Source of the DNA: Actinomycetota bacterium
Lineage (GTDB): Bacteria > Actinomycetota > Geothermincolia > Geothermincolales > RBG-13-55-18
Direction: 5' to 3'
DNA length: 64,000 bases
Assembly (NCBI GenBank): GCA_014360655.1
Contig: JACIXC010000006.1
Coordinates: 1 to 64,000, forward strand
Below, piece after piece: positions 39,067-49,940 of the stretch. Within the stretch, counting starts at the first letter, position 1. Each line of letters begins with the position of its first letter. Both the position numbers and the translations under genes were made by a program. A model generated the notes under the pieces. The model searched no databases. It was not told where the DNA came from and was given only the letters and a program-made list of their open reading frames with translations.

Positions 39067-40854
39067 CTACAAGGTACCCACGTATATGTGCACGTTACTA
39101 CCTGATTCCACCATCGTGCCCGCGGCGGGGTTCTGGCTCACCACCTTGCCCACCTTGGTGGGATCCACGACCACCTGGGTATGCTCCACGGCGTGCAGCC
39201 CGGCATCCTCCAGGATGTCCTTGGCGTCGTCCGCCGTCTTGTCGATGACGCTGGGGACCTCCACCATGGCGGGGCCCTTGCTCACCACTATGGTCACCTG
39301 GCTCCCCTTGGCGACCTTCAGGTTGGCCAGGGGACTCTGGCGTATGACCTTGCCCTCCGCGACCTCCGAGCTCGCCTCCTCCCTCACCGCGACCTGGAAG
39401 CCGGCGTCGCGCAGCCTGCTCTCCGCCTCGTCCCGGTCCAGTCCCACCACGTTGGGCACCGTCACCTTTGTCTGTTCCACGCCCACCACCAGCCGCACGC
39501 TGGTCTTAGGGGATATGTACTTGCCGCTGGCGGGGTCCTGCGAGATGACGATGCCGACGTCGTCCTCGTCCTCGACCTCCTGGTTGGATATCTCGATGAC
39601 CTTGACTCCCAGCTTGCGCAGGGCCTCCTCCGCCTCGTCCTTGTCCATCCCGGTCACCTTGGGCATCTTCATCTCCCGGGTGACGGTGATGTTCACCTTC
39701 TCGCCCTTGGCCAGGAGCGTGCCCCACTCGGGGTCCTGGGAGACCACGACCCCCACCTTCTGCGAGGCGTCCTCCACGTACTGGTCCTCCACATCCCCCA
39801 GGGCGAGGCCGAGGTCCTCGAGTGTCTGCCGCGCCTGCTCCTCGCTCATGCCCTCCAGGTTGGGGACCTCCACCTTCGCTCCCCCTCCCGAGAGGACCAG
39901 GGCGAGCACCACGCCGAGGACCACCAGCAGGGAGACGATCCCCGCCACCACCCAGGCCCAGCGGTGTCCCGGGGCGGCGGCGGACGGAGCCGCGACCGTC
40001 ACGCCCTCCGGCAGCACGGGGGTGGCGGTGACCGGCATTCCCTCCAGGAAACGCAGGAGGTCCGCCTTCATCTCCTGGGCCGTCTGGAACCGGTTGGCGG
40101 GGTTCTTGGCCATGGCCTTCATGACGATGGCCTCCATGGTCGGGGGTATCTCGGGATCGATGACCGAAAGGGGCACGGGGTCCTCGCGCACATGCTTGTA
40201 GGCGATGGTCACCGGGTTGGGATCGTCGAAGGGCACCCGGCCCGAGAGCATCTCGTAGAGCACCACCCCCAGGGAATAGATGTCCGAGCGCCCGTCCACC
40301 TGCAGGCCCTGCGCCTGTTCCGGCGAGATGTACTGGGGGGTCCCCATGACCATGCCGGTCTGGGTCATCCCGCTCCCGTTGCCCTCTCGGGCGATGCCGA
40401 AGTCCATCACCTTCACCTGTCCCAGGCTGGTGATGAAGATGTTGTGGGGTTTGATGTCCCGGTGCACCAGGTTATGGCGGTGGGCGAACTGCAGCGCGGC
40501 GCAGATCTCGGCCGCTATCTCCGCCGCCCTCTCCGGGAGGATGCGGCCCTCGTTCTTCAGGATGTCCTTGAGGTCGCGGCCCTCCACGTATTCCATGACG
40601 ATGTAATAGAGGTCCCCCTCGTTTCCCCAGTCGTAGATGTTGACGATGTTGGGGTGGTTCAGGTTGGCGGCGGCCTGCGCCTCGTGCCGGAACCTCTGGA
40701 TGAAGGAGGGATCGGCGGCATACTGGGGATGGAGCACCTTCACCGCCACCTCCCTCCCCAGCAAGAGGTCATCGGCGAGGAAGACGTCGGCCATGCCTCC
40801 GCTTCCGATCTTTTCCTTCAAGCGGTAACGCTCATTGAAAACCCTGCCGAGCAT
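39067..40854 (-). CDS. pknB: Ser/Thr protein kinase PknB with four PASTA domains
   Basis: A protein of 595 residues. The kinase domain (1-270) is complete: glycine loop GSGGMADVF, Lys39 (VAVKVL), Glu in RHEAQAAANL, HRDIKPHN at 131-138, DFG at 151-153, activation-loop Thr residues in MTQTGMVMGTPQYISPE. A juxtamembrane linker is followed by one transmembrane helix (about 299-322) and four extracellular PASTA repeats (about 328-595), which bind muropeptides or lipid II. GAGGAGG precedes the ATG. It is the last gene of the fha-pstP-rodA-pbpA cluster and the only complete Ser/Thr kinase in it. Confidence 0.97.
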   Translation of the reverse strand: MLGRVFNERYRLKEKIGSGGMADVFLADDLLLGREVAVKVLHPQYAADPSFIQRFRHEAQAAANLNHPNIVNIYDWGNEGDLYYIVMEYVEGRDLKDILKNEGRILPERAAEIAAEICAALQFAHRHNLVHRDIKPHNIFITSLGQVKVMDFGIAREGNGSGMTQTGMVMGTPQYISPEQAQGLQVDGRSDIYSLGVVLYEMLSGRVPFDDPNPVTIAYKHVREDPVPLSVIDPEIPPTMEAIVMKAMAKNPANRFQTAQEMKADLLRFLEGMPVTATPVLPEGVTVAAPSAAAPGHRWAWVVAGIVSLLVVLGVVLALVLSGGGAKVEVPNLEGMSEEQARQTLEDLGLALGDVEDQYVEDASQKVGVVVSQDPEWGTLLAKGEKVNITVTREMKMPKVTGMDKDEAEEALRKLGVKVIEISNQEVEDEDDVGIVISQDPASGKYISPKTSVRLVVGVEQTKVTVPNVVGLDRDEAESRLRDAGFQVAVREEASSEVAEGKVIRQSPLANLKVAKGSQVTIVVSKGPAMVEVPSVIDKTADDAKDILEDAGLHAVEHTQVVVDPTKVGKVVSQNPAAGTMVESGSNVHIYVGTL

Positions 40855-41156: not shown

Positions 41157-42506
41157 TCACGACCCCTTCCTGTTCACCACCAGGTTCACCGTCGCTCCCC
41201 CGGAGAGCTTGGCGCCGTACGGGGGGTCGGTCTCGACCACGCGGTTCTCGCTGTAACCCGGCGCTTCCCTGTAGGTCACCTCTCCCACGCGGAAGCCCCT
41301 GCTCTCCAGCACTATGCGCGCATCGTCCAGGGTGAGGCCGATGAGGTTGGGCACGGTGAGCGGGCCGAGGCTCTCCAGGACCTTGATCACCGTTTTTCTT
41401 TCCACCATGACCCCCACCATGGGGTCCTGCGAGATCACGTGGCTCGCTTTAACGTCCATGTCGTATTCCTTGCCCACCACCAGCAGCCCCAGGTCGCGTT
41501 CCCCGGCCACCCTGCGCGCCTCCTCCACGCTCATGTTGACCAGGTTCGGGACCTCGACCTTGCTGCCGCCGATGAAGGTGGAGATGATCCAGAAGAGAAG
41601 CGTTACGGCCGCGAGGCCCAGGAAGGCCGCGCCCGCCCAGATCTGCCAGCGTCGCAGGCGCGGCAGGGGAAGGGGCATCGCCGGCGCGGCGGCCTCGGCC
41701 TCCGCCACGGTCTCCTCGGGAACCACCTGGGGGATGGGTGCCATGGGCAGTTCCTCGCGCAGCGTGGAGACCGCCTCCCACAGGGCCTGGCGGGCGGTGG
41801 CGAAGCCCTTCCCGCCGGAGCTCTCCATGCACAGCTGCGCGAAGCGTCGCAATCTCGGGGGCACCTCCGCGTCCCAACGCAGCTTCCCGCTCCTTATGTC
41901 CCCTATCGCCTCGGCCTTGCTCCGTCCGGTGAGGGAGCGGTAGAGGAGGTATCCCAGGTCGCGCAGGTCCTTCTTGGCGTCCGCGAGAAGGGGAAAAGGG
42001 GTATCCGCCCCTCCCAGCAGGGTGGGGAACCCGGCATCGGAGACCTTGGCCCTTCTTCCCGGGAAGACGAAGACGTGCCTCTCGTCGAGGGAACCGTGGG
42101 CCACCCCCTGTTCCTCCAGGAACGCCAGTATCCTGGTCATCTCCACGGCGAAGTAGAGGGCGCCCAGTGGCTTCATCCTCCTCCCCATCTCCAGCATCTC
42201 GTGGAGGGTCTTGGCGTGCAGCATTTCCATGACCACGAAGGGCCTGTCCTCCTCCACCCCGTAGTCCATGACCTCCACTATGCCGGGATGGCGCAGGCGC
42301 GTCGCCCGGTGCGCCGCGACGCGGAATTGATCGCAGAACTCCCGGTCCGAGAGCAGGTGCAGCAGGGGAAGCTTCACGGCGACCTCCCTCTCCTCGAGCA
42401 GGTCGAAGCCGCGGAAGACCTCTACCGTGCGCCCCAGGGCTACCCGCTCGTCGAGGCGGTAGCGTTTCCTCAGGACCCTTCCTCTCCAGTCCTCGGACAG
42501 TTCCAT
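41157..42506 (-). CDS. PASTA-domain pseudokinase in the pknA position
   Basis: A protein of 449 residues. The N-terminal domain (about 10-270) has the Ser/Thr-kinase fold with Lys45 in EVAVKL, 'LRHPGIVEVMDYG' and 'FVVMEML', but the glycine loop is degenerate (VALGRTVEVF). The alpha-C Glu is missing (RVAAHRATRL), HRDxKxxN reads HGSLDERH (no catalytic Asp, no metal Asn), and DFG reads DAG. A transmembrane helix (about 300-325) and two PASTA domains follow. ATP binding may persist through Lys45 and Asp157, but phosphotransfer is unlikely. ATG at 42506 has GAGGAG 6 bases upstream. A scaffold or lipid II-sensing partner of PknB/RodA/PbpA is a reasonable inference. Confidence 0.9.
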   Translation of the reverse strand: MELSEDWRGRVLRKRYRLDERVALGRTVEVFRGFDLLEEREVAVKLPLLHLLSDREFCDQFRVAAHRATRLRHPGIVEVMDYGVEEDRPFVVMEMLHAKTLHEMLEMGRRMKPLGALYFAVEMTRILAFLEEQGVAHGSLDERHVFVFPGRRAKVSDAGFPTLLGGADTPFPLLADAKKDLRDLGYLLYRSLTGRSKAEAIGDIRSGKLRWDAEVPPRLRRFAQLCMESSGGKGFATARQALWEAVSTLREELPMAPIPQVVPEETVAEAEAAAPAMPLPLPRLRRWQIWAGAAFLGLAAVTLLFWIISTFIGGSKVEVPNLVNMSVEEARRVAGERDLGLLVVGKEYDMDVKASHVISQDPMVGVMVERKTVIKVLESLGPLTVPNLIGLTLDDARIVLESRGFRVGEVTYREAPGYSENRVVETDPPYGAKLSGGATVNLVVNRKGS

Positions 42507-42867
42507 CTTCACTCCTCAGGAAGCCCTTCCGCGATCCTCCGGGGTCGTTCTGGTTTCCATAACACTATCTTAATGAAACGCGCCCGCGCAAACAGCATAC
42601 CCCGCGAAGAAAGGTCGGACGCTTGGGGCACCGCCCCTTTCCTGCTCGCCCGGCTGTTTTATCGGGATCGACGGGGTTTTTCCCTCGATCCCTTGCTGCC
42701 CTGGAGCGCCTGCCGGGACTTTACGGCATCCCCTTTACGGCATCCCCCTAGCGGAGGTGTGCGCGGAGACGCACCCATCGCGCCCCGGGGGGCGGCCGCG
42801 CGACGCCGTCGAGCCCACGGCGCGGAAAACGCCGCGTTCACGCGGTTCCCCGGCGGTGCGGCCTCCC
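42507..42867. other. Intergenic region between pbpA and pseudokinase
   Basis: About 360 bases without a gene. A weak AT-rich patch at 42555-42580 (TTTCATTAAGATAGTGTTATGG on the minus strand, upstream of the pseudokinase) could hold a promoter. Two short CGGCATCCCC direct repeats stand near 42723 and 42738. Confidence 0.35.
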
Positions 42868-44298
42868 CTACTTGAGGGCGGCTTTCAAGACCTCGCGGGC
42901 GACGGGGGCAGCCGCGGCCCCGCCGCTCCCGCCGTTCTCGATCACCACGGCGACCACCACGCTGGGGTTCCCGGCCGGGGCGATCCCCAGGAACCAGGCG
43001 TGGGGCGGCTTTCCCTCCACTTCGGCTGTCCCCGTCTTTCCGGCCACCGTCACCCCGGAGATGGCCGCCTGGGTGCCGGTGCCCTTCTCCACCACCTCCA
43101 CCATCATCCGCAGAACTTCCCCCGCCGTTTCCGCCTTGATGGGGCTTCTCCACACGGAGGCCTCGTAGCGTTCGAGGATCTCGGCTCCCCGGCGCACCTC
43201 CTTCAACAGGTGGGGCACCATGATCTTTCCGCCGTTGGCCACAGCGCAACCCGCGAGGCAGAGCTGTAGCGGGGTGAGGAGAAGCTCGCCCTGTCCCACT
43301 CCCGTCCAGGCGAGTGAGACCGCGTCCATCTCCCCGGGCGATGGGATGGTGGAAGTGGAGACCGCGGGGTGGTCGAGCGGGGGCCTGTCGTTGATGCCGA
43401 GACGCTCGGCGCAGTCGACGAGCGCCTCCGCGCCCATGCGCACGGCCAGCTGGGCGAAGTAGGTGTTCACGGAGTAAGCCAATGCCGTTTCCATGGCTAT
43501 GCTGCCGAAGCTGCGCGGGGGGTTCCCGTAGTTGGTCACGCGCGAGCCGCCCACCGACCACACCCCCGGGCAGTCGAAGGCGGTGGAGGCGGGGAGTCCC
43601 TCATCCAGGGCCGCCGCGGCGGTCACCACCTTGAAGCTCGAGCCCGGCGCGTACAGTCCCATGGTGGCGCGGCTCAAGAGGGGACTGTTCGCGTCCGTGG
43701 AGTAAGCCTCCATGGAGGCCTCGGCGGATGACGCCCCGCCCTCCCCCTTCTCCCGGCCCACCAGCGCGTTGGGGTCGAAGGTGGGCCAGGAATAGAGGGC
43801 CAGAACGGCGCCCGTCTTCGGGTTTATGGCCACCACCGCACCCTTGCGCGGACCCAGGGCGGAGGCGGCGGCCTCCTGCACCCGCGAGTCGAGGGTGAGG
43901 TAGAGGTCGTTGCCCTCCTGCAGGACGGCGGTCATCTCCTGCACCCAGCCGCGGGCGGGCTTCCTTCCCAACAGGTAGTCGTTGTACTGGTCCTCGAGGC
44001 CGGTCCTTCCGAACTGCGGGCTGTCGTAACCCAGCACGTGCGCGAAAAGGCCTCCCGCGGGATACCTCCTGCGGTAGCGGAATGGCCCTTCCGTCTCCTC
44101 GCTCTCCGCCAGCATCACGTCGTCGCTGGTATAAACCCTCCCCCGCGCGATGGAGTACTCCTCGACCAGCCTCCTCGTGTTGGCAGGATTTTCCATGAGA
44201 CCCTTCTGCCCCCAGACCTGCAGGTAGCTCAGGTTTATCACCAGCACCAGGGTCACCACCACGAAGAAGCCCCCCAGGCGCTTGATGCCCCTATGCAA
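42868..44298 (-). CDS. pbpA: Penicillin-binding protein PbpA (class B transpeptidase)
   Basis: A protein of 476 residues, as for actinobacterial PbpA. One N-terminal transmembrane helix (about 9-28) precedes a short dimer region and the transpeptidase domain. Active-site motifs: Ser220-x-x-Lys223 (PGSSFK), YSVN (SxN) and KTGT. It cross-links peptidoglycan with RodA. The TTG start overlaps the rodA stop by 8 bases (TTGCATAG) and has GGGAGGTGG upstream. The coupling with rodA is the usual arrangement for an elongation/division SEDS-bPBP pair. Confidence 0.95.
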   Translation of the reverse strand: MHRGIKRLGGFFVVVTLVLVINLSYLQVWGQKGLMENPANTRRLVEEYSIARGRVYTSDDVMLAESEETEGPFRYRRRYPAGGLFAHVLGYDSPQFGRTGLEDQYNDYLLGRKPARGWVQEMTAVLQEGNDLYLTLDSRVQEAAASALGPRKGAVVAINPKTGAVLALYSWPTFDPNALVGREKGEGGASSAEASMEAYSTDANSPLLSRATMGLYAPGSSFKVVTAAAALDEGLPASTAFDCPGVWSVGGSRVTNYGNPPRSFGSIAMETALAYSVNTYFAQLAVRMGAEALVDCAERLGINDRPPLDHPAVSTSTIPSPGEMDAVSLAWTGVGQGELLLTPLQLCLAGCAVANGGKIMVPHLLKEVRRGAEILERYEASVWRSPIKAETAGEVLRMMVEVVEKGTGTQAAISGVTVAGKTGTAEVEGKPPHAWFLGIAPAGNPSVVVAVVIENGGSGGAAAAPVAREVLKAALK

Positions 44299-45757
44299 CC
44301 TCCCCACCTCCCGCGGAAACGCACAACAGCAGTCCAAGCAGCAGGAAGTTGCTCACCAGCGAGCTCCCCCCGTAGCTCACGAAGGGGAGCGTTATGCCGG
44401 TGAGGGGAAGCAGCCTGGTCACCCCGCCCATGATGATGAAGGATTGCAGGCCGACGATGGCCGACAGCCCCACCGCCAGCAGCCTCCCGAAATCGTCGGG
44501 GCAACGCAGGGCCACGTACAGTCCGCGGCAGGTGAAGGCGAGGTAGAGGAGGGCCAGGGCCACCGCCCCGAAGAGGCCGAGTTCCTCCCCCGCCGAGGCG
44601 TAGATGAAGTCGGTTTCCACGAAGGGTATGAGGTCCGGGCTTCCCCTTGCCAGGCCGGTTCCCGAGAGGCCGCCGTCCGCGAAGGCGAAGAGGGACTGCG
44701 CTATCTGGTAGCTCTCGCCGTTGACCGTCTGCGGGTCGAGGGGGTCGATCCAGCTCTTGACCCTGCTCTCCACGTGCCCGAAGAGGAAGAAGGTCAGGGT
44801 GGCTCCCGCCAGGAAGAGGACGACCCCCGCGAGCACGAAGGCGGGACGCTCAGTGGACACGTAGATGACGGCCAGGAAGATGCCGAAGAAGAGGAGGGAG
44901 GAGCCGAGGTCGCGCTGGAAGATGAGCAGGAGGAGGGACAACGCCCACATGGTGAGCAGGGGGCCGAGGTCCCGCGGTCGGGGAAGGTTGAGCCCCAGCA
45001 CCTTCTTGCCCGCGGAGGCGATGAGCTCCCTGCGCTCCGCCAGGTAGGCGGCGAAGAACACGGCGAGCAGTATCTTGGCGAGCTCCGAGGGTTGCAGGCG
45101 CAGGGGCCCGAAGACCAGCCACAGCCTCGCCCCGTTCACCTCCCGTCCCAGGATCATGGTGGAGAAGAGAAGCGCCAGACCGAGCAGGGCAAGGGTGTAG
45201 CGGTACCTCTCCATGAGCCTGTAGTCGCGCAGGAGGGCGACCAGGAGGAGCATGGCGAGCATCCCCACCCCCATCCATATCAACTGCAGCCTGGCCATGT
45301 GCGCGTTGAGGCGCAGGAGGAGGACCATGCCCACCAGGCAAAGGGCGGCGGCGAGCGGCAGGAGGACCGGGTCGGCGTGCGGGCGCAGGCCGCGCAGAAC
45401 GAGGTGGGCGAGGAGGAAAGCCGCGCAGAGCAGCAGGGGATATGTCACGTTCGCGGCCACCACCCTGCCCTCGCGGGCCAGGTCCAGGGAAACCCATCCC
45501 AGGAAGGATACGGGAAAGGCGGCCCCGAGGAGCAGCAGTTCTTTCCAGCGCGCCCCCGTGCCGGGAGCAGCCGTTCCCGCGCCCCCGCCTGACGCTCCGC
45601 CTGCCGCTCCGCCGCCCGCCCGCGCGCGGCCCGCACGTGCTCCGCCGGCCGGCACGCCGCGCGCGCCGTCGCTCCCGCCCTTTCCCGCCGCGACCTTCAT
45701 GCCCGCATCGGCCCTTCCGCGCCCGTACCCTCCGGTCTCCCTTCCGGGGCCGCTCAT
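44291..45757 (-). CDS. rodA: SEDS glycosyltransferase RodA/FtsW
   Basis: A protein of 488 residues. A low-complexity Gly/Ala/Arg cytosolic tail (about 1-70) precedes about 10-12 transmembrane helices. SEDS signatures: REVNGARLWL, LQPSELAKI, FQRDLGSSL (with the essential Asp), GESYQIAQSLFAFADGG, TDFIYASAGEELG, GITLPFVSYGGSS. It polymerises lipid II into glycan strands. ATG overlaps the pstP stop (ATGA). The disordered N-terminal tail is longer than in most RodA proteins. RodA is chosen over FtsW from its place next to pbpA and pstP. Confidence 0.95.
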   Translation of the reverse strand: MSGPGRETGGYGRGRADAGMKVAAGKGGSDGARGVPAGGARAGRARAGGGAAGGASGGGAGTAAPGTGARWKELLLLGAAFPVSFLGWVSLDLAREGRVVAANVTYPLLLCAAFLLAHLVLRGLRPHADPVLLPLAAALCLVGMVLLLRLNAHMARLQLIWMGVGMLAMLLLVALLRDYRLMERYRYTLALLGLALLFSTMILGREVNGARLWLVFGPLRLQPSELAKILLAVFFAAYLAERRELIASAGKKVLGLNLPRPRDLGPLLTMWALSLLLLIFQRDLGSSLLFFGIFLAVIYVSTERPAFVLAGVVLFLAGATLTFFLFGHVESRVKSWIDPLDPQTVNGESYQIAQSLFAFADGGLSGTGLARGSPDLIPFVETDFIYASAGEELGLFGAVALALLYLAFTCRGLYVALRCPDDFGRLLAVGLSAIVGLQSFIIMGGVTRLLPLTGITLPFVSYGGSSLVSNFLLLGLLLCVSAGGGEVA

Positions 45758-46539
45758 CCCCGTTTCCACCGCCGTACCTTCCTCGCTCGCTCGTCGGGGC
45801 CGCCCCTCCCGCCCGCGGGTTCACGAGGCAGGTCGCCCTCCTCCAGGTCGATGACGACCACGGTGACGTTGTCCTCCCCTCCCCTGGCGTTCGCCTCCGC
45901 GACCAGGTTGCGGCAGCATTCCTCCGTGTCCCGCACGCCCAGGAGTATCTTTTCCAGTTCCTCGTCCTCCAGGTGCGACGTCAGGCCGTCGGTGCACAAG
46001 AGGACCCTGTCACCCGCGCGCAGGTCGGGAGAGGAGAGGTCCACGACCAGGCGGCTTTCCATGCCGAGAGCCCTCAGGATAACGTTGCGACGTGGGTGTA
46101 CGCGCGCCTGTCGCGGGGTGAGGAACCCCTCCCTCACCATCTTCGCCACCAGCGAGTGGTCGCGGGTCAGGGAGGCCAGTCCTCCCTCGCGTAGCAGGTA
46201 GGCGCGGCTGTCCCCCACGTGCCCCAGGAACGCGCCCTCCTCCAGCAGGAGCACGGTGAACGTGGTGCCCATCCCCTCCAGGGAAGGGTTTTCCGCGGCC
46301 ATGCGGGAGATGAATTCGTTGGCCGCCAGGATGCCCTCGTGAAGCCTTTTCAGGGGAGGCAGACGCCTGTTCTTTTCCTCGAAGTACAGGAAACGCTCCA
46401 CGGCGGCGGAGCTGGCCACCTCCCCCGCGCGGTGGCCCCCCATGCCGTCGGCGACGATGAAGATGCGCCCGTCCGCATGCCAGCTGTCCTCGTTGTTCTC
46501 CCGGACCCTGCCGACGTCAGAAAGGCCCGCGTAGCGCAT
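45754..46539 (-). CDS. pstP: PP2C-type Ser/Thr phosphatase PstP
   Basis: A protein of 261 residues. All PPM motifs are present: GLSDVGRVRENNEDSW, VADGMGGHRAGE, GTTFTVLLL, GHVGDSRAYLLR, TRDHSLV, LCTDGL and GEDNVTVVV. These give the Asp ligands for two Mn2+/Mg2+ ions. It removes phosphate from PknB and its substrates. Unlike mycobacterial PstP, it has no transmembrane or extracellular part and ends in a basic tail, so it is cytosolic. GAGAGGAGAAGG lies before the ATG. It overlaps rodA. Confidence 0.96.
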   Translation of the reverse strand: MRYAGLSDVGRVRENNEDSWHADGRIFIVADGMGGHRAGEVASSAAVERFLYFEEKNRRLPPLKRLHEGILAANEFISRMAAENPSLEGMGTTFTVLLLEEGAFLGHVGDSRAYLLREGGLASLTRDHSLVAKMVREGFLTPRQARVHPRRNVILRALGMESRLVVDLSSPDLRAGDRVLLCTDGLTSHLEDEELEKILLGVRDTEECCRNLVAEANARGGEDNVTVVVIDLEEGDLPREPAGGRGGPDERARKVRRWKRG

Positions 46540-46622
46540 TCCTTCTCCTCTCCGGGGAAATCCCCGCGCCGTCCCCGTTCCCTCCCGCGTAGCCACGTCG
46601 GCCGCGGGACGGCGCGCGGGTC

Positions 46623-47069
46623 CTAACGCCTGAACTCCATCAGGGTGTTCCCTACCTTGATGCTGTCGCCTCCCCGCAACTCGGTCGGGTAATTGATGCG
46701 CCGACCGTTGACGTAGGTTCCGTTGGTGCTGCCCAGGTCCTCGATGTAAAACCTCCCCTCTACCTGGTAAAGTTTGGCATGCAGGTTGGAGGCGAATTCG
46801 TCCTGCAGGCAGAGGGAACACTCGGGCGCGCGCCCGATCAGCATCTCCCTGCTCGCGTCCCAGTCCACGCGGCGCCGCCGGCCTTCCCTCTCCGCGAGCA
46901 GGAGGAAGGGCCCGCGCTTCCCGCTCACCTTGCGTGCCGGCCGGCGCTCCCCCTGTGCCTCCCGGCCCGGACTCAGTTCCCGGTAGATGGTCCTCGCTAC
47001 CAGGAGGACGAAGACGTAAAGCAGGAAGAGGAAGGCGTATCTCAGGGTCACGTAGACTATCTCCGGCAA
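46623..47069 (-). CDS. fhaB: FHA-domain protein FhaB (membrane)
   Basis: A protein of 148 residues. An N-terminal transmembrane helix (about 6-26), a basic linker (about 30-65) and a C-terminal FHA domain (about 75-148) with phosphothreonine-binding residues: IGR, SNLHAKLY and DLGSTNGTYVNG. It reads phospho-Thr marks made by PknB near the wall-synthesis machinery. The TTG start has GGGGACAGG upstream. It lies 83 bases before pstP. Confidence 0.94.
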   Translation of the reverse strand: MPEIVYVTLRYAFLFLLYVFVLLVARTIYRELSPGREAQGERRPARKVSGKRGPFLLLAEREGRRRRVDWDASREMLIGRAPECSLCLQDEFASNLHAKLYQVEGRFYIEDLGSTNGTYVNGRRINYPTELRGGDSIKVGNTLMEFRR

Positions 47070-47202
47070 GACCTGTCCCCTTCCTTTCCCATCTTTTCCC
47101 TGTCCCGGAGGAACACCCGGCGCCCGAGCTCGCCGATGGAGGCCGCCGGCAGGGCTCGTCCCCCTCCTCTCCCCCGTCCGATCCCTTGCGGCGTCGTATT
47201 CA

Positions 47203-47946
47203 TCACTCTCCCGGGGGCGGGCTCGCCGCATCTCCGAGGAGCCCGAACCCCATTTCCACGTCGCCGCACCGCAGGATATCCCCCTCCTCGAGCAGCCTCT
47301 CCCGTATGCGGCGTCCCCCCACCAGGGTCCCGTTGGTGCTGCCCAGGTCGCGCAGGACGTAACCCTCGGGGAGTCGCTCTATCTCCGCGTGGAACCGGGA
47401 GACGCTGGGATCCGGGAGCACGACGTCGTTCTCGGCCGCCCTTCCGATGCGCGTCCTCGTCCCCTCCATGACGTGGCGCGAGCCCGCCGCGCGCCCGTTC
47501 AGGACGGTGAGCACTCCCGGCCGCGTTTCCCCGCCGCGGCGGGCGGGCGCGCCCGCCGCGCCCTCGACGCCGCGCTTTTCCTCGCCGAAGGAGGAGCGCA
47601 CCTCGAACTCCCCCTTTCCCAGCCCCTCCTCTTTTTGAAATGCAAGGCGGGGGCGGCTCGACAGGTGGTAATGCTCCCGGTTCGCGTACCCGATGACCAG
47701 GGATTCCAGCTCCGCGGCAAGGGAGGGTAACACCCCGGAGAGGTGTTCGTAGTCCACGGGGCTGAGCAGCACGGTGAAGCGGTGCGGCGCCTGTACCCCG
47801 TTCACCCCCAGCACGCGGGCGTCGTCCATCTCCTTCATCACGCGGCGCGCGATCTCCAGGGGATGAACGTCTCCCTTGAAAACCTTTGCGAAAGGCCCCT
47901 CGAAGGCCTTTTCAAGGCTCTTCTCGAAGCGGCGTAACAGTCCCAT
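47203..47946 (-). CDS. fhaA: DUF3662-FHA protein FhaA
   Basis: A protein of 247 residues. The N-terminal DUF3662 domain (1-115) has MGLLRRFEKSLEKAFEGPFA and 'VHPLEIARRVMKEMDD'. A variable linker leads to a C-terminal FHA domain (about 160-247) with RIGRAAENDVVLPD, SRFHAEIE and DLGSTNGTLVGG. FhaA binds phosphorylated wall-synthesis partners. ATG has GAGGGAGATG upstream. The start region is duplicated 73 bases upstream (see repeat at 47941-48049). It is the first gene of the cluster. Confidence 0.95.
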   Translation of the reverse strand: MGLLRRFEKSLEKAFEGPFAKVFKGDVHPLEIARRVMKEMDDARVLGVNGVQAPHRFTVLLSPVDYEHLSGVLPSLAAELESLVIGYANREHYHLSSRPRLAFQKEEGLGKGEFEVRSSFGEEKRGVEGAAGAPARRGGETRPGVLTVLNGRAAGSRHVMEGTRTRIGRAAENDVVLPDPSVSRFHAEIERLPEGYVLRDLGSTNGTLVGGRRIRERLLEEGDILRCGDVEMGFGLLGDAASPPPGE

Positions 47947-48049
47947 CACGGCATCTCCCTCAGGATCCCCCTCCACGCCGCGAATTCGCCCGTACCATCA
48001 CCATGCCAGGAAGTCCCATCACGTCATCTCCCTCGGGATCCCCCTCCAC
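47941..48049. repeat. 36-bp direct repeat, 73-bp tandem duplication at the fhaA start
   Basis: 47941-47976 and 48014-48049 match in 34 of 36 bases. The repeat contains the Shine-Dalgarno region and ATGGGA of fhaA. The second copy overlaps the end of the upstream gene. It marks a recent local duplication. Confidence 0.85.
47960..48019 (-). CDS. Possible 19-codon leader ORF before fhaA
   Basis: The duplicated start site gives an ATG at 48019 with the same GAGGGAGATG ribosome site as fhaA. It encodes 19 residues (MGLPGMVMVRANS, then an Arg/Gly-rich end) and stops 14 bases before the fhaA ATG, inside the fhaA ribosome site. It could couple translation or be an accident of duplication. No conservation can be judged here. 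Confidence 0.35.
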   Translation of the reverse strand: MGLPGMVMVRANSRRGGGS

Positions 48050-48500
48050 CGATGACGTCCTCCACCTCCGCGATGCGGCCGGGGAACCTGGCCATCTCCA
48101 GGACGATCAGCCCCAGGGACACGGCCGCGACGACGACCCCCCGGAGCATCTCGCCGGTGAAGAGGTAAAGGAACATCCCCAGCACCGAGGACATGCTGGT
48201 GCCCACCCCCTGCAAACCGAAGACCCCCTCGGCGTAGGTCCATCCCTTCTCGCTGTCCCCGATATATGGAAAGAGTTTCCACAGGCGGCGGTAGAGGTAA
48301 AGGTTGAAGAACGCCCACGCGCCCAGGCCGACGGCCACCAGGGCGGCGGTGAGCGCGTTGAGCGAGGCGCTTCCCATGCCGGTGCGCCGCACGGACCATG
48401 GAGAGAGGGCGAGGAAGACGATGAAGGCCAGGAGCACGGCGGGTATTCCCCATCCTATCATGCATAACCTCAAGAGGACCCTCTTCTTCTCCTCCGCCAT
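48024..48500 (-). CDS. Small membrane protein upstream of fhaA, unknown
   Basis: A protein of 158 residues with four hydrophobic helices (about 9-35, 46-70, 93-113, 117-137) and a Gly/Arg tail. ATG at 48500 is favoured because the TATAAT at 48556-48561 overlaps the upstream in-frame ATG at 48557; ATG at 48527 also remains possible. No enzymatic motif is seen. Same strand as the fha cluster and ends 5 bases before the leader ORF, so it may be the first gene of that transcript. Confidence 0.7.
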   Translation of the reverse strand: MAEEKKRVLLRLCMIGWGIPAVLLAFIVFLALSPWSVRRTGMGSASLNALTAALVAVGLGAWAFFNLYLYRRLWKLFPYIGDSEKGWTYAEGVFGLQGVGTSMSSVLGMFLYLFTGEMLRGVVVAAVSLGLIVLEMARFPGRIAEVEDVIGGGGSRGR

Positions 48501-48555
48501 AAACCCGTCTTCCCTCGCGCCGCGCATGAACCCGCGCTCTTTACAGGACAAGTGC

Positions 48556-48561
48556 ATTATA
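48556..48561 (-). promoter_or_regulatory. Extended -10 upstream of the fha cluster
   Basis: GTTGGTATAATGC (TG-n-TATAAT) on the minus strand lies about 55 bases before the membrane-protein start at 48500. It is a good candidate for the promoter of the whole cluster. Confidence 0.55.
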
Positions 48562-48761
48562 CCAACAGCATCGGCGGCCTTAAAAACCCGCGGGCCGGTG
48601 CCGATAAGATAACTTGTGCGGGCCGCGGGGGTTTTCCGCTGCGGCGGGTTGACCGGCAGCCGCGTGGGGTGCGAGCTGCAGTGTTGCGGAAAGGTTAACT
48701 GGCGAGTGATAGAATTAGGTTAACGGATGGCTTTCGTTTCAACGCCATGGAGGTGGCCGTG

Positions 48762-49940
48762 ATGGAATGTCCTTTCCATGCCGGAACCGAAGCGATAACC
48801 GCCTGCGTGCAGTGCGAGACCCCCATCTGCCCGCTCTGCGTATCGGAGAGCAACCAGGTACACCTCTGCCTGAACTGCTACAGGTCCCGCGTGGAGGAGC
48901 TTTCAGCCGTGCTGGGAAGCGCTTCCGTCCGCATGGCCAAGGAGCGCCGCAAGGCGGAGTCCAAGGTGGCGGTCGGACGCCGGGCGAAAGGCAGGGAGAA
49001 GGCGGCGGAAGCCCCGGTCGAGGCGCGCCCGGTCTTCAGCACGGAGGCGGCGGAGCCCATCTGGGAGAAGGAGGGCTTCGAGCCCTCCGCCGGCGAGGAG
49101 GCGGCGGAAGTCGCCGCGGGAATCGCTGCGGGGGTCGCGGCCGCCGAGGTGGTCGCCGAGGTGCCCCTTTCCAAGAAGGAGCTCGCGCGCCTGAAGAAGG
49201 AGGAGGCCAGGCGCCTGAAGGAGGAGAAGAAGCGGGCGCGCAAGGGAGCGGCGCCGGAGATGGCGGAAGCGGGAGCCGCCGAGGTGGTCGCCGAGGTGCC
49301 CCTTTCCAAGAAGGAGCTCGCGCGCCTGAAGAAGGAGGAGGCCAGGCGCCTGAAGGAGGAGAAGAAGCGGGCGCGCAAGGGAGCGGCGCCGGAGATGGCG
49401 GAAGCGGGAGCCGCCGAGGTGGTCGCCGAGGTGCCCCTTTCCAAGAAGGAGCTCGCGCGCCTGAAGAAGGAGGAGGCCAGGCGCCTGAAGGAGGAGAAGA
49501 AGCGGGCGCGCAAGGGAGCGGCGCCGGAGATGGCGGAAGCGGGAGCCGCCGAGGTGGTCGCCGAGGTGCCCCTTTCCAAGAAGGAGCTCGCGCGCCTGAA
49601 GAAGGAGGAGGCCAGGCGCCTGAAGGAGGAGAAGAAGCGGGCGCGCAAGGGAGCGGCGCCGGAGATGGCGGAAGCCCCGGTCATGCCCGAGCCGGCTCCC
49701 TTCTTCGAGCCGGCGCCGGAACCACCCTCCTTCGCGCCTCCCCCCGAGGCCGGCCCCGTTGCGGAACCCGGTAGGAAAGCGGCGGTCACGCCGGACATCA
49801 CCTTTGAATTCCCCATAGAGCCCGCCACGGAGGGCATCAAGCTGCCGCGGCTCGAGGACAGGCTGGAATCCCTGCCGCCGCTGGAGGAGGAGGAAGGGCC
49901 TCCTCCCGGCATGGAACCCCCCGAGGGCTTCTTCGACTAG
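48762..49940 (+). CDS. B-box zinc-finger protein with four perfect 45-residue repeats
   Basis: A protein of 392 residues. ATG at 48762 has GGAGGTG 6 bases upstream. Residues 1-45 form a B-box-type zinc finger (CPFHAG...CVQCETPICPLC...HLCLNC). A linker leads to four identical 45-residue repeats (about 127-305) made of an acidic 'AEVVAEVPLSKKEL' part and a highly charged helix 'ARLKKEEARRLKEEKK'. The C-terminus is Pro/Glu-rich and disordered. No membrane segment is seen. B-box-type fingers at the N-terminus of bacterial proteins usually sit in membrane or peptidase proteins; a Lys/Glu repeat tail is unusual. It ends in a 4-base overlap with the PHP gene. Confidence 0.85.
   Translation: MECPFHAGTEAITACVQCETPICPLCVSESNQVHLCLNCYRSRVEELSAVLGSASVRMAKERRKAESKVAVGRRAKGREKAAEAPVEARPVFSTEAAEPIWEKEGFEPSAGEEAAEVAAGIAAGVAAAEVVAEVPLSKKELARLKKEEARRLKEEKKRARKGAAPEMAEAGAAEVVAEVPLSKKELARLKKEEARRLKEEKKRARKGAAPEMAEAGAAEVVAEVPLSKKELARLKKEEARRLKEEKKRARKGAAPEMAEAGAAEVVAEVPLSKKELARLKKEEARRLKEEKKRARKGAAPEMAEAPVMPEPAPFFEPAPEPPSFAPPPEAGPVAEPGRKAAVTPDITFEFPIEPATEGIKLPRLEDRLESLPPLEEEEGPPPGMEPPEGFFD
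49141..49675 (+). repeat. Four perfect 135-bp tandem repeats inside a coding region
   Basis: Units start at 49141, 49276, 49411 and 49546. All are identical base for base as far as can be read; the last is 130 bases long. The period is a multiple of 3 so the frame is kept. Perfect identity shows recent expansion or gene conversion. Confidence 0.95.

Follow-up and report, generated by a model that had tools for sequence, protein, structure and literature searches.

Organization of the locus

The window, i.e. the whole analysed stretch of 64,000 nucleotides from an Actinomycetota bacterium of the order Geothermincolales (positions 1 to 64,000 of contig JACIXC010000006.1, assembly GCA_014360655.1), carries a minus-strand gene cluster arranged in the order: membrane protein, fhaA, fhaB, PstP-like PP2C phosphatase, ftsW/rodA, pbpA, the gene analysed here, pknB and a FAD oxidoreductase of the geranylgeranyl-reductase kind (Table 1). 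The gene located between pbpA and pknB encodes a PASTA pseudokinase, for which we use the name PSK; its candidate partner is the product of the adjoining pknB.

The open reading frame of PSK (41157-42512, minus strand) begins with a GTG codon at 42512, which would give a protein of 451 aa, and the residue numbers used here are counted from this codon. The ATG at 42506, which was taken as the end of the gene in an earlier note on this DNA, is the better start, with a ribosome-binding site (GAGGAG) placed just 5′ of it. The gap between PSK and pknB is approx. 300 bp, and co-transcription of the two genes is therefore not certain; a scan of the 300-360 bp gaps for promoters and terminators revealed nothing above chance.

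Table 1. Features of the PSK gene and of the surrounding cluster (positions in the window)
Feature	Position	Strand	Basis or remark
pknB, active PASTA kinase, 4 PASTA, VAVK/E/HRD/N/DFG intact	39067..40854	-	Pfam, NCBIfam, alignment
PSK gene, kinase-TM-PASTA2 protein	41157..42506	-	449 aa from ATG at 42506
PASTA 2	41166..41360	-	Pfam; 82% mean identity in PSK family
PASTA 1	41361..41564	-	Pfam; 78% mean identity
Transmembrane helix, about res. 289-313	41574..41648	-	sequence; helix 299-313 in structure model
Juxtamembrane linker, res. 253-288, variable	41649..41756	-	alignment, identity
Kinase C-lobe, res. 98-252, shortened activation segment and alphaG region	41757..42221	-	65% mean identity
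DAG where DFG expected	42030..42038	-	alignment
HGSLDERHV where HRDxKPxNI expected	42072..42098	-	alignment
VAVK, beta3 lysine retained	42372..42383	-	alignment
Kinase N-lobe, res. 12-97	42222..42479	-	81% mean identity, dN/dS 0.06-0.09
pbpA-type transpeptidase	42868..44337	-	Pfam, NCBIfam
FtsW/RodA family glycosyltransferase	44291..45769	-	Pfam, NCBIfam
PstP-like PP2C phosphatase	45754..46533	-	conserved part of ORF 45754-46821
FhaB-like FHA protein	46623..47231	-	Pfam, NCBIfam
FhaA-like FHA protein (FhaA_N + FHA)	47203..47976	-	Pfam

The membrane helix and the two PASTA domains that had been noticed earlier were confirmed, the former from the sequence and the latter by Pfam (PF03793, 85 bits). 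The kinase domain was recognized by Pfam as a partial match ending at residue ~166 (PF07714, 41.7 bits; PF00069, 30.8 bits, slightly below the cut-off). Against the NCBIfam model PknB_PASTA_kin (NF033483; cut-off 450 bits) PSK scored 174 bits (173.7) and the adjoining PknB, to which it is ~32% identical, 669 bits.

Two further genes lie at the fhaA end of the cluster. The small membrane protein encoded directly upstream of fhaA (48024-48557, minus strand) has a position conserved across the order, and a search of NCBIfam gave no match for it, nor was there any Pfam match at curated level. The plus-strand gene at 48747-49940 of the window encodes a protein with a B-box-like zinc-binding stretch in its N-terminal part, a charged low-complexity middle part and four near-identical direct repeats of ~44 residues (GAAEVVAEVPLSKKELARLKKEEARRLKEEKKRARKGAAPEMAEA).

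Catalytic motifs of PSK

The motif register was established by aligning PSK with PknA and PknB of M. tuberculosis and with 37 PknB proteins, an alignment of the kind that the earlier note had proposed, and every motif was placed unambiguously. The changes described in that note (HGS for HRD, loss of the metal Asn, of the alphaC Glu and of a normal glycine loop, with VAVK kept) all agree with the alignment: HRD is replaced by HGS, the catalytic Lys140 by Asp, Asn143 by His and the alphaC Glu59 by Ala (Ala66 in PSK, where FRVAAHRA stands in place of FRxEAxxA), and the glycine loop has degenerated from GSGGM to ALGRT. The alignment also revealed changes beyond that description, namely the replacement of DFG by DAG and the deletion of the alphaF-alphaG loop and of most of the activation segment, with which the activation-loop Thr residues are gone.

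We also considered the possibility that the motifs had been misplaced and that the true HRD lies elsewhere. It was rejected, since a single register holds across 16 orthologs and PknA/PknB, and HRD does not occur anywhere else in the protein.

The losses are shared by nearly all of the 16 aligned orthologs: the alphaC Glu and the catalytic Lys are missing from every one, the HRD Asp and the metal Asn from 15/16. Retained are the VAVK Lys (15/16) and the Asp and Gly of the DFG position (16/16), which reads D(A/P/V/S)G. The replacement motif HGSLDExHxF is invariant in PSKs of family f1, and is not kept in those of families f2 and f3 (HGN, HGD).

Profile, structure model and alignment place PSK among pseudokinases in the general sense of the term, i.e. 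proteins with the kinase fold that have lost at least one of the VAIK Lys, the HRD Asp and the DFG Asp. Relative to the residue set of PASTA kinases (K, E, D, N, D), PSK keeps K and the last D and has lost E, D and N. PSK is almost certainly conserved as a pseudokinase and devoid of normal kinase activity. This state is not a general trait of the PASTA kinases of Actinomycetota, because all five residues are kept in 40/40 further PASTA kinases read outside the host order; the 37 aligned PknB proteins are likewise all catalytically intact.

Conservation and selection

The PSK gene is present in 17/18 genomes of the host order, including 12/12 high-quality ones, and is absent from one that is 62% complete. 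One of the 17 copies is split over two contigs (genome G002), and the 16 full-length copies were used for alignment. In every readable genome of the order PSK sits between pbpA and pknB, with a longer stretch separating it from pbpA in genome G014. Such conservation beside PknB suggests a role as a receptor without enzymatic activity, or as a partner of PknB, in place of a role as a kinase.

The dN/dS ratios, calculated from six close pairs, were 0.06-0.09 for the N-lobe, 0.09-0.19 for the C-lobe, 0.06-0.23 for PASTA1, 0.06-0.09 for PASTA2 and 0.12-0.8 for the linker; for the kinase lobes and PASTA2 they remained within 0.06-0.19 in all pairs. Mean identities within family f1 were 81% (N-lobe), 65% (C-lobe), 43% (linker), 78% (PASTA1) and 82% (PASTA2), the last value exceeding that of each PASTA repeat of the adjoining PknB (52-75%). 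Both the N-lobe and the ectodomain with its PASTA repeats are thus under the strongest selection in PSK. The receptor or scaffold role put forward in the earlier note would fit this pattern of constraint.

Distribution and origin

A profile built from the 16 full-length PSKs was searched against 396 Actinomycetota genomes sampled evenly over the phylum. The profile scored 565-768 bits for the 16 members and 281 bits for the G002 fragment, while nothing else exceeded 266 bits. At the border of the host order the score therefore falls from 565 to 266 bits, and PSK was not found outside this order among the 396 genomes. In the kinase tree PSKs form a single clade (100/100) with a long stem. The clade is ancient, and in this one order of deep Actinomycetota its presence is fixed.

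The earlier note had described PSK as occupying the pknA slot. As a position, between pbpA and pknB, this holds. As to descent, AU tests reject neither PSK as a duplicate of the PknB of the order (p 0.45) nor its grouping with PknA (p 0.32), so that the term can be used only in the positional sense. Among the PASTA repeats of PknB in the order, PASTA1 is slightly nearer (32-36%) to those of PSK, and the repeat tree gives no resolution.

The accompanying statement that two active kinases end the standard Actinomycetota cluster proved too general: in the Actinomycetota sampled outside the host order, 16/18 readable clusters have pbpA followed directly by an active pknB, and an active kinase is located between these two genes in only 2/18. 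In sister families belonging to the same class, pbpA of the fhaA-pbpA cluster is not followed by a kinase, and pknB is found elsewhere.

Several other arrangements were observed. In the sister-family loci L134-L145 the cluster fhaA-fhaB-PP2C-rodA-pbpA is present without pknB, and in three sister-family loci that were read pbpA is followed by an open frame of ~260-420 aa with an N-terminal membrane-like stretch. Loci L079, L083, L084, L085, L099, L100 and L101 carry, upstream of fhaA, an active kinase without PASTA domains. These kinases group with PknA (93/73), and PknA may therefore have shifted from one end of the fhaA-pbpA cluster to the other in Actinomycetota.

Further PASTA pseudokinases in the order

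PSK is not the only protein of this kind in the order. A second PASTA pseudokinase, with one PASTA and a PKD domain, is encoded in the same genome on contig C12 (79456-81540; L044:954-3041, minus strand). In this protein VAVK is replaced by VEID, HRD by YLG and DFG by RAG. Matches were obtained in 18/18 genomes of the order, and none of the 12 that were read has kept the kinase motifs.

A third, independent PASTA pseudokinase occurs in genus g6, where its gene lies between PSK and pknB (L056:5106-6638, plus strand; L058:8628-10166, minus strand). The extra gene, found in genomes G012 and G014, has HGG for HRD and DVG for DFG, with the Asn and the alphaC Glu kept, and in the tree it is nested within the PknB clade of the order; it is a recent duplicate of PknB at the PSK locus. 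That PASTA receptors have lost catalysis more than once within a single order is the most unusual of these results.

PSK as a possible partner of PknB

The reading that we favour, tentatively and at somewhat less than even chances, is that PSK pairs with PknB and serves the PknB system as a receptor subunit that has PASTA domains and no catalytic role. These domains would bind cell-wall material at the RodA/PbpA site, and the cytoplasmic pseudokinase domain, which would transfer no phosphate, would contact active PknB through its N-lobe. The geometry of this contact would most likely be back-to-back, as known for PknB and for the MviN pseudokinase, and the pairing would set the place or the strength of PknB action.

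The conservation of the N-lobe bears on this model. Among 27 N-lobe positions that are near-invariant in PknB, only R10, Y11, D30, F56, D76, G78 and E93 (numbering of M. tuberculosis PknB) are kept in 16/16 PSKs. R10 (R17 in PSK) and D76 (D83 in PSK) form the salt bridge in the back-to-back dimer of M. tuberculosis PknB. Survival of this pair may also be structural, RY and DxG motifs being conserved across the kinase family. An AlphaFold2 model of PSK has the kinase fold and is closest to M. tuberculosis PknB, but it is weak (pLDDT 63, built with four sequences), with values below 50 in the catalytic region.

At the position of Leu33, the third key residue of the back-to-back interface, every one of the 13 f1 PSKs has Glu (E40 in the PSK of the window), and the other three PSKs have Leu. 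The PDB holds structures of the D76A and L33D/L33E mutants of M. tuberculosis PknB, and E33 is like the dimer-breaking changes of Leu33, which speaks against a PSK homodimer and may weaken a heterodimer too. The f1 proteins may thus have kept the PknB-facing N-lobe with self-pairing disfavoured, or, equally, may have lost the interface. It is on account of these two readings that we hold the partner model only tentatively.

A wider proposal, in our judgement rather doubtful, is that in this order one active PASTA kinase is surrounded by several PASTA receptors without catalytic function, an arrangement in which PSK would be a dedicated co-receptor of PknB, accompanied by the PASTA and PKD pseudokinase and by the PknB duplicate of one genus, and in which the Glu of f1 would bias PSK from homodimer to pairing with PknB. 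HER3, acting with HER2 in animals, offers an analogy for such a co-receptor.

Binding of lipid II by PSK, as suggested in the earlier note, is plausible by analogy with the family. In M. tuberculosis PknB the lipid II contacts are S556, K557, N559 and Q560, located between PASTA3 and PASTA4 (PMC6428115). The stretch between PASTA1 and PASTA2 of PSK, aligned to these contacts, reads S-L-G-P-L; the Ser alone is shared, and three of the four contact residues are not conserved. PknB of the window itself reads SKGPA at this site, and ligand specificity may therefore differ across the whole host order.

Alternative explanations

The best of the alternatives, which we nevertheless consider rather unlikely, is that PSK is a phospho-scaffold like MviN: PknB would phosphorylate it, and the FHA domain of FhaA or FhaB would dock on the phosphothreonine and bring regulators to RodA/PbpA. 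The precedent is the mycobacterial MviN pseudokinase, which is phosphorylated by PknB and recruits FhaA (PMC6180346, PMC12599244). In the order, one and the same cluster codes for FhaA, FhaB, a PstP-like phosphatase and PknB, and MurJ of this genome lies in a frame of 571 aa with no room for the pseudokinase tail of MviN, so that the FhaA dock would be vacant. However, the juxtamembrane linker of PSK is poorly conserved, and the alignment of orthologs revealed no conserved Ser/Thr in its variable part; the Thr residues that are conserved (T29, T71, T102) lie inside the fold, and those of the activation loop are deleted.

It is less likely still that PSK is a decoy or sink, which would damp PknB signalling by competing with PknB for the PASTA ligand or for dimer partners. 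Its architecture and position are the same as those of PknB, and E33 of f1 resembles L33E/L33D. The strong and specific conservation of the N-lobe and PASTA2, together with a new invariant motif in the catalytic loop, nevertheless exceeds what a passive sink would need, and, apart from one Ser, PSK does not share the lipid II contacts of M. tuberculosis PknB.

SelO, SidJ and POMK are examples of kinase folds whose pocket supports a different chemistry. That PSK is an unusual active enzyme of this kind, with weak ATP binding, is improbable. The retained VAVK Lys and DFG Asp and Gly, and the invariance of HGSLDExHxF in f1, would agree with it, but hardly any PSK keeps the Asn, the alphaC Glu or the HRD Asp, most of the activation segment is deleted, and the motif is not retained in f2 and f3, which means that there is no order-wide catalytic signature.

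The reading of PSK as a pseudogene, a decaying and non-functional relic of a tandem kinase copy, was rejected as extremely improbable: the loss of catalytic residues and the less conserved C-lobe would suit it, but the gene is intact in 17/18 genomes over three families, dN/dS is far below 1 (0.06-0.19 in the lobes and PASTA2), and its position and the replacement residues are conserved.

Comparison with known systems

With PASTA kinases of the PknB/Stk1 type (NF033483) PSK shares the kinase-TM-PASTA layout, the site after rodA-pbpA and the fold. Unlike them it lacks the HRD Asp, Lys140, Asn143 and the alphaC Glu, its activation loop is largely missing, and it has two PASTA domains only. PknA occupies the same position between pbpA and pknB, but the sampled PknA proteins are active, whereas the motifs of PSK are lost.

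A further parallel is offered by the ActPs3 pseudokinase of MviN/MurJ in M. tuberculosis, another actinobacterial pseudokinase tied to cell-wall synthesis in the context of PknB and FhaA. Both proteins have a shortened activation loop and keep the Asp of the back-to-back interface; in MviN, L750 and D793 match residues required for dimerization in other bacterial kinases, and the matching residues of its pseudokinase make its dimer (PMC12599244). ActPs3, a fusion to the MurJ channel, lacks the beta3 Lys and DFG (PMC12599244), whereas PSK, a single-pass receptor with PASTA domains, retains the Lys and the DFG Asp. PSK falls outside ActPs3, defined by the loss of all three motifs, since the Lys (15/16) and the DFG Asp (16/16) are kept. 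The difference from mycobacterial MviN noted earlier is therefore upheld (no MurJ channel, PASTA in place of the carbohydrate-binding domain, and a separate MurJ frame in the genome), as is the difference from CwsA.

EssB/YukC of type VIIb secretion is also a single-pass membrane pseudokinase with degraded glycine and activation loops that serves as a structural subunit (PMC12599244), but it belongs to an unrelated system and has no PASTA. The DYD pseudokinases of Actinobacteria and Firmicutes resemble PSK in being membrane-bound and lacking the alphaC Glu (PMC12599244); they carry a beta3 Arg and DYD, whereas PSK carries Lys (15/16) and D(A/P/V/S)G. A 2025 review of bacterial pseudokinases does not list PASTA among the domains of any family, ActPs1, ActPs2, GLW, CP1 and DLHK included (PMC12599244).

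No PASTA pseudokinase is described in the open-access literature searched, a body of work that leaves aside most subscription papers and preprints. This literature does not describe the combination found in PSK, nor its proposed role; the fold and the domains were already known.

PASTA kinases are the main sensors that tie the state of peptidoglycan to growth control in Gram-positive bacteria, and they are drug targets in M. tuberculosis. How the binding of a ligand outside the cell sets kinase activity inside it is still debated for these proteins. PSK is a natural receptor in which the ectodomain and the N-lobe have been kept and catalysis has been removed; it separates sensing from phosphorylation and therefore makes the dimer model testable.
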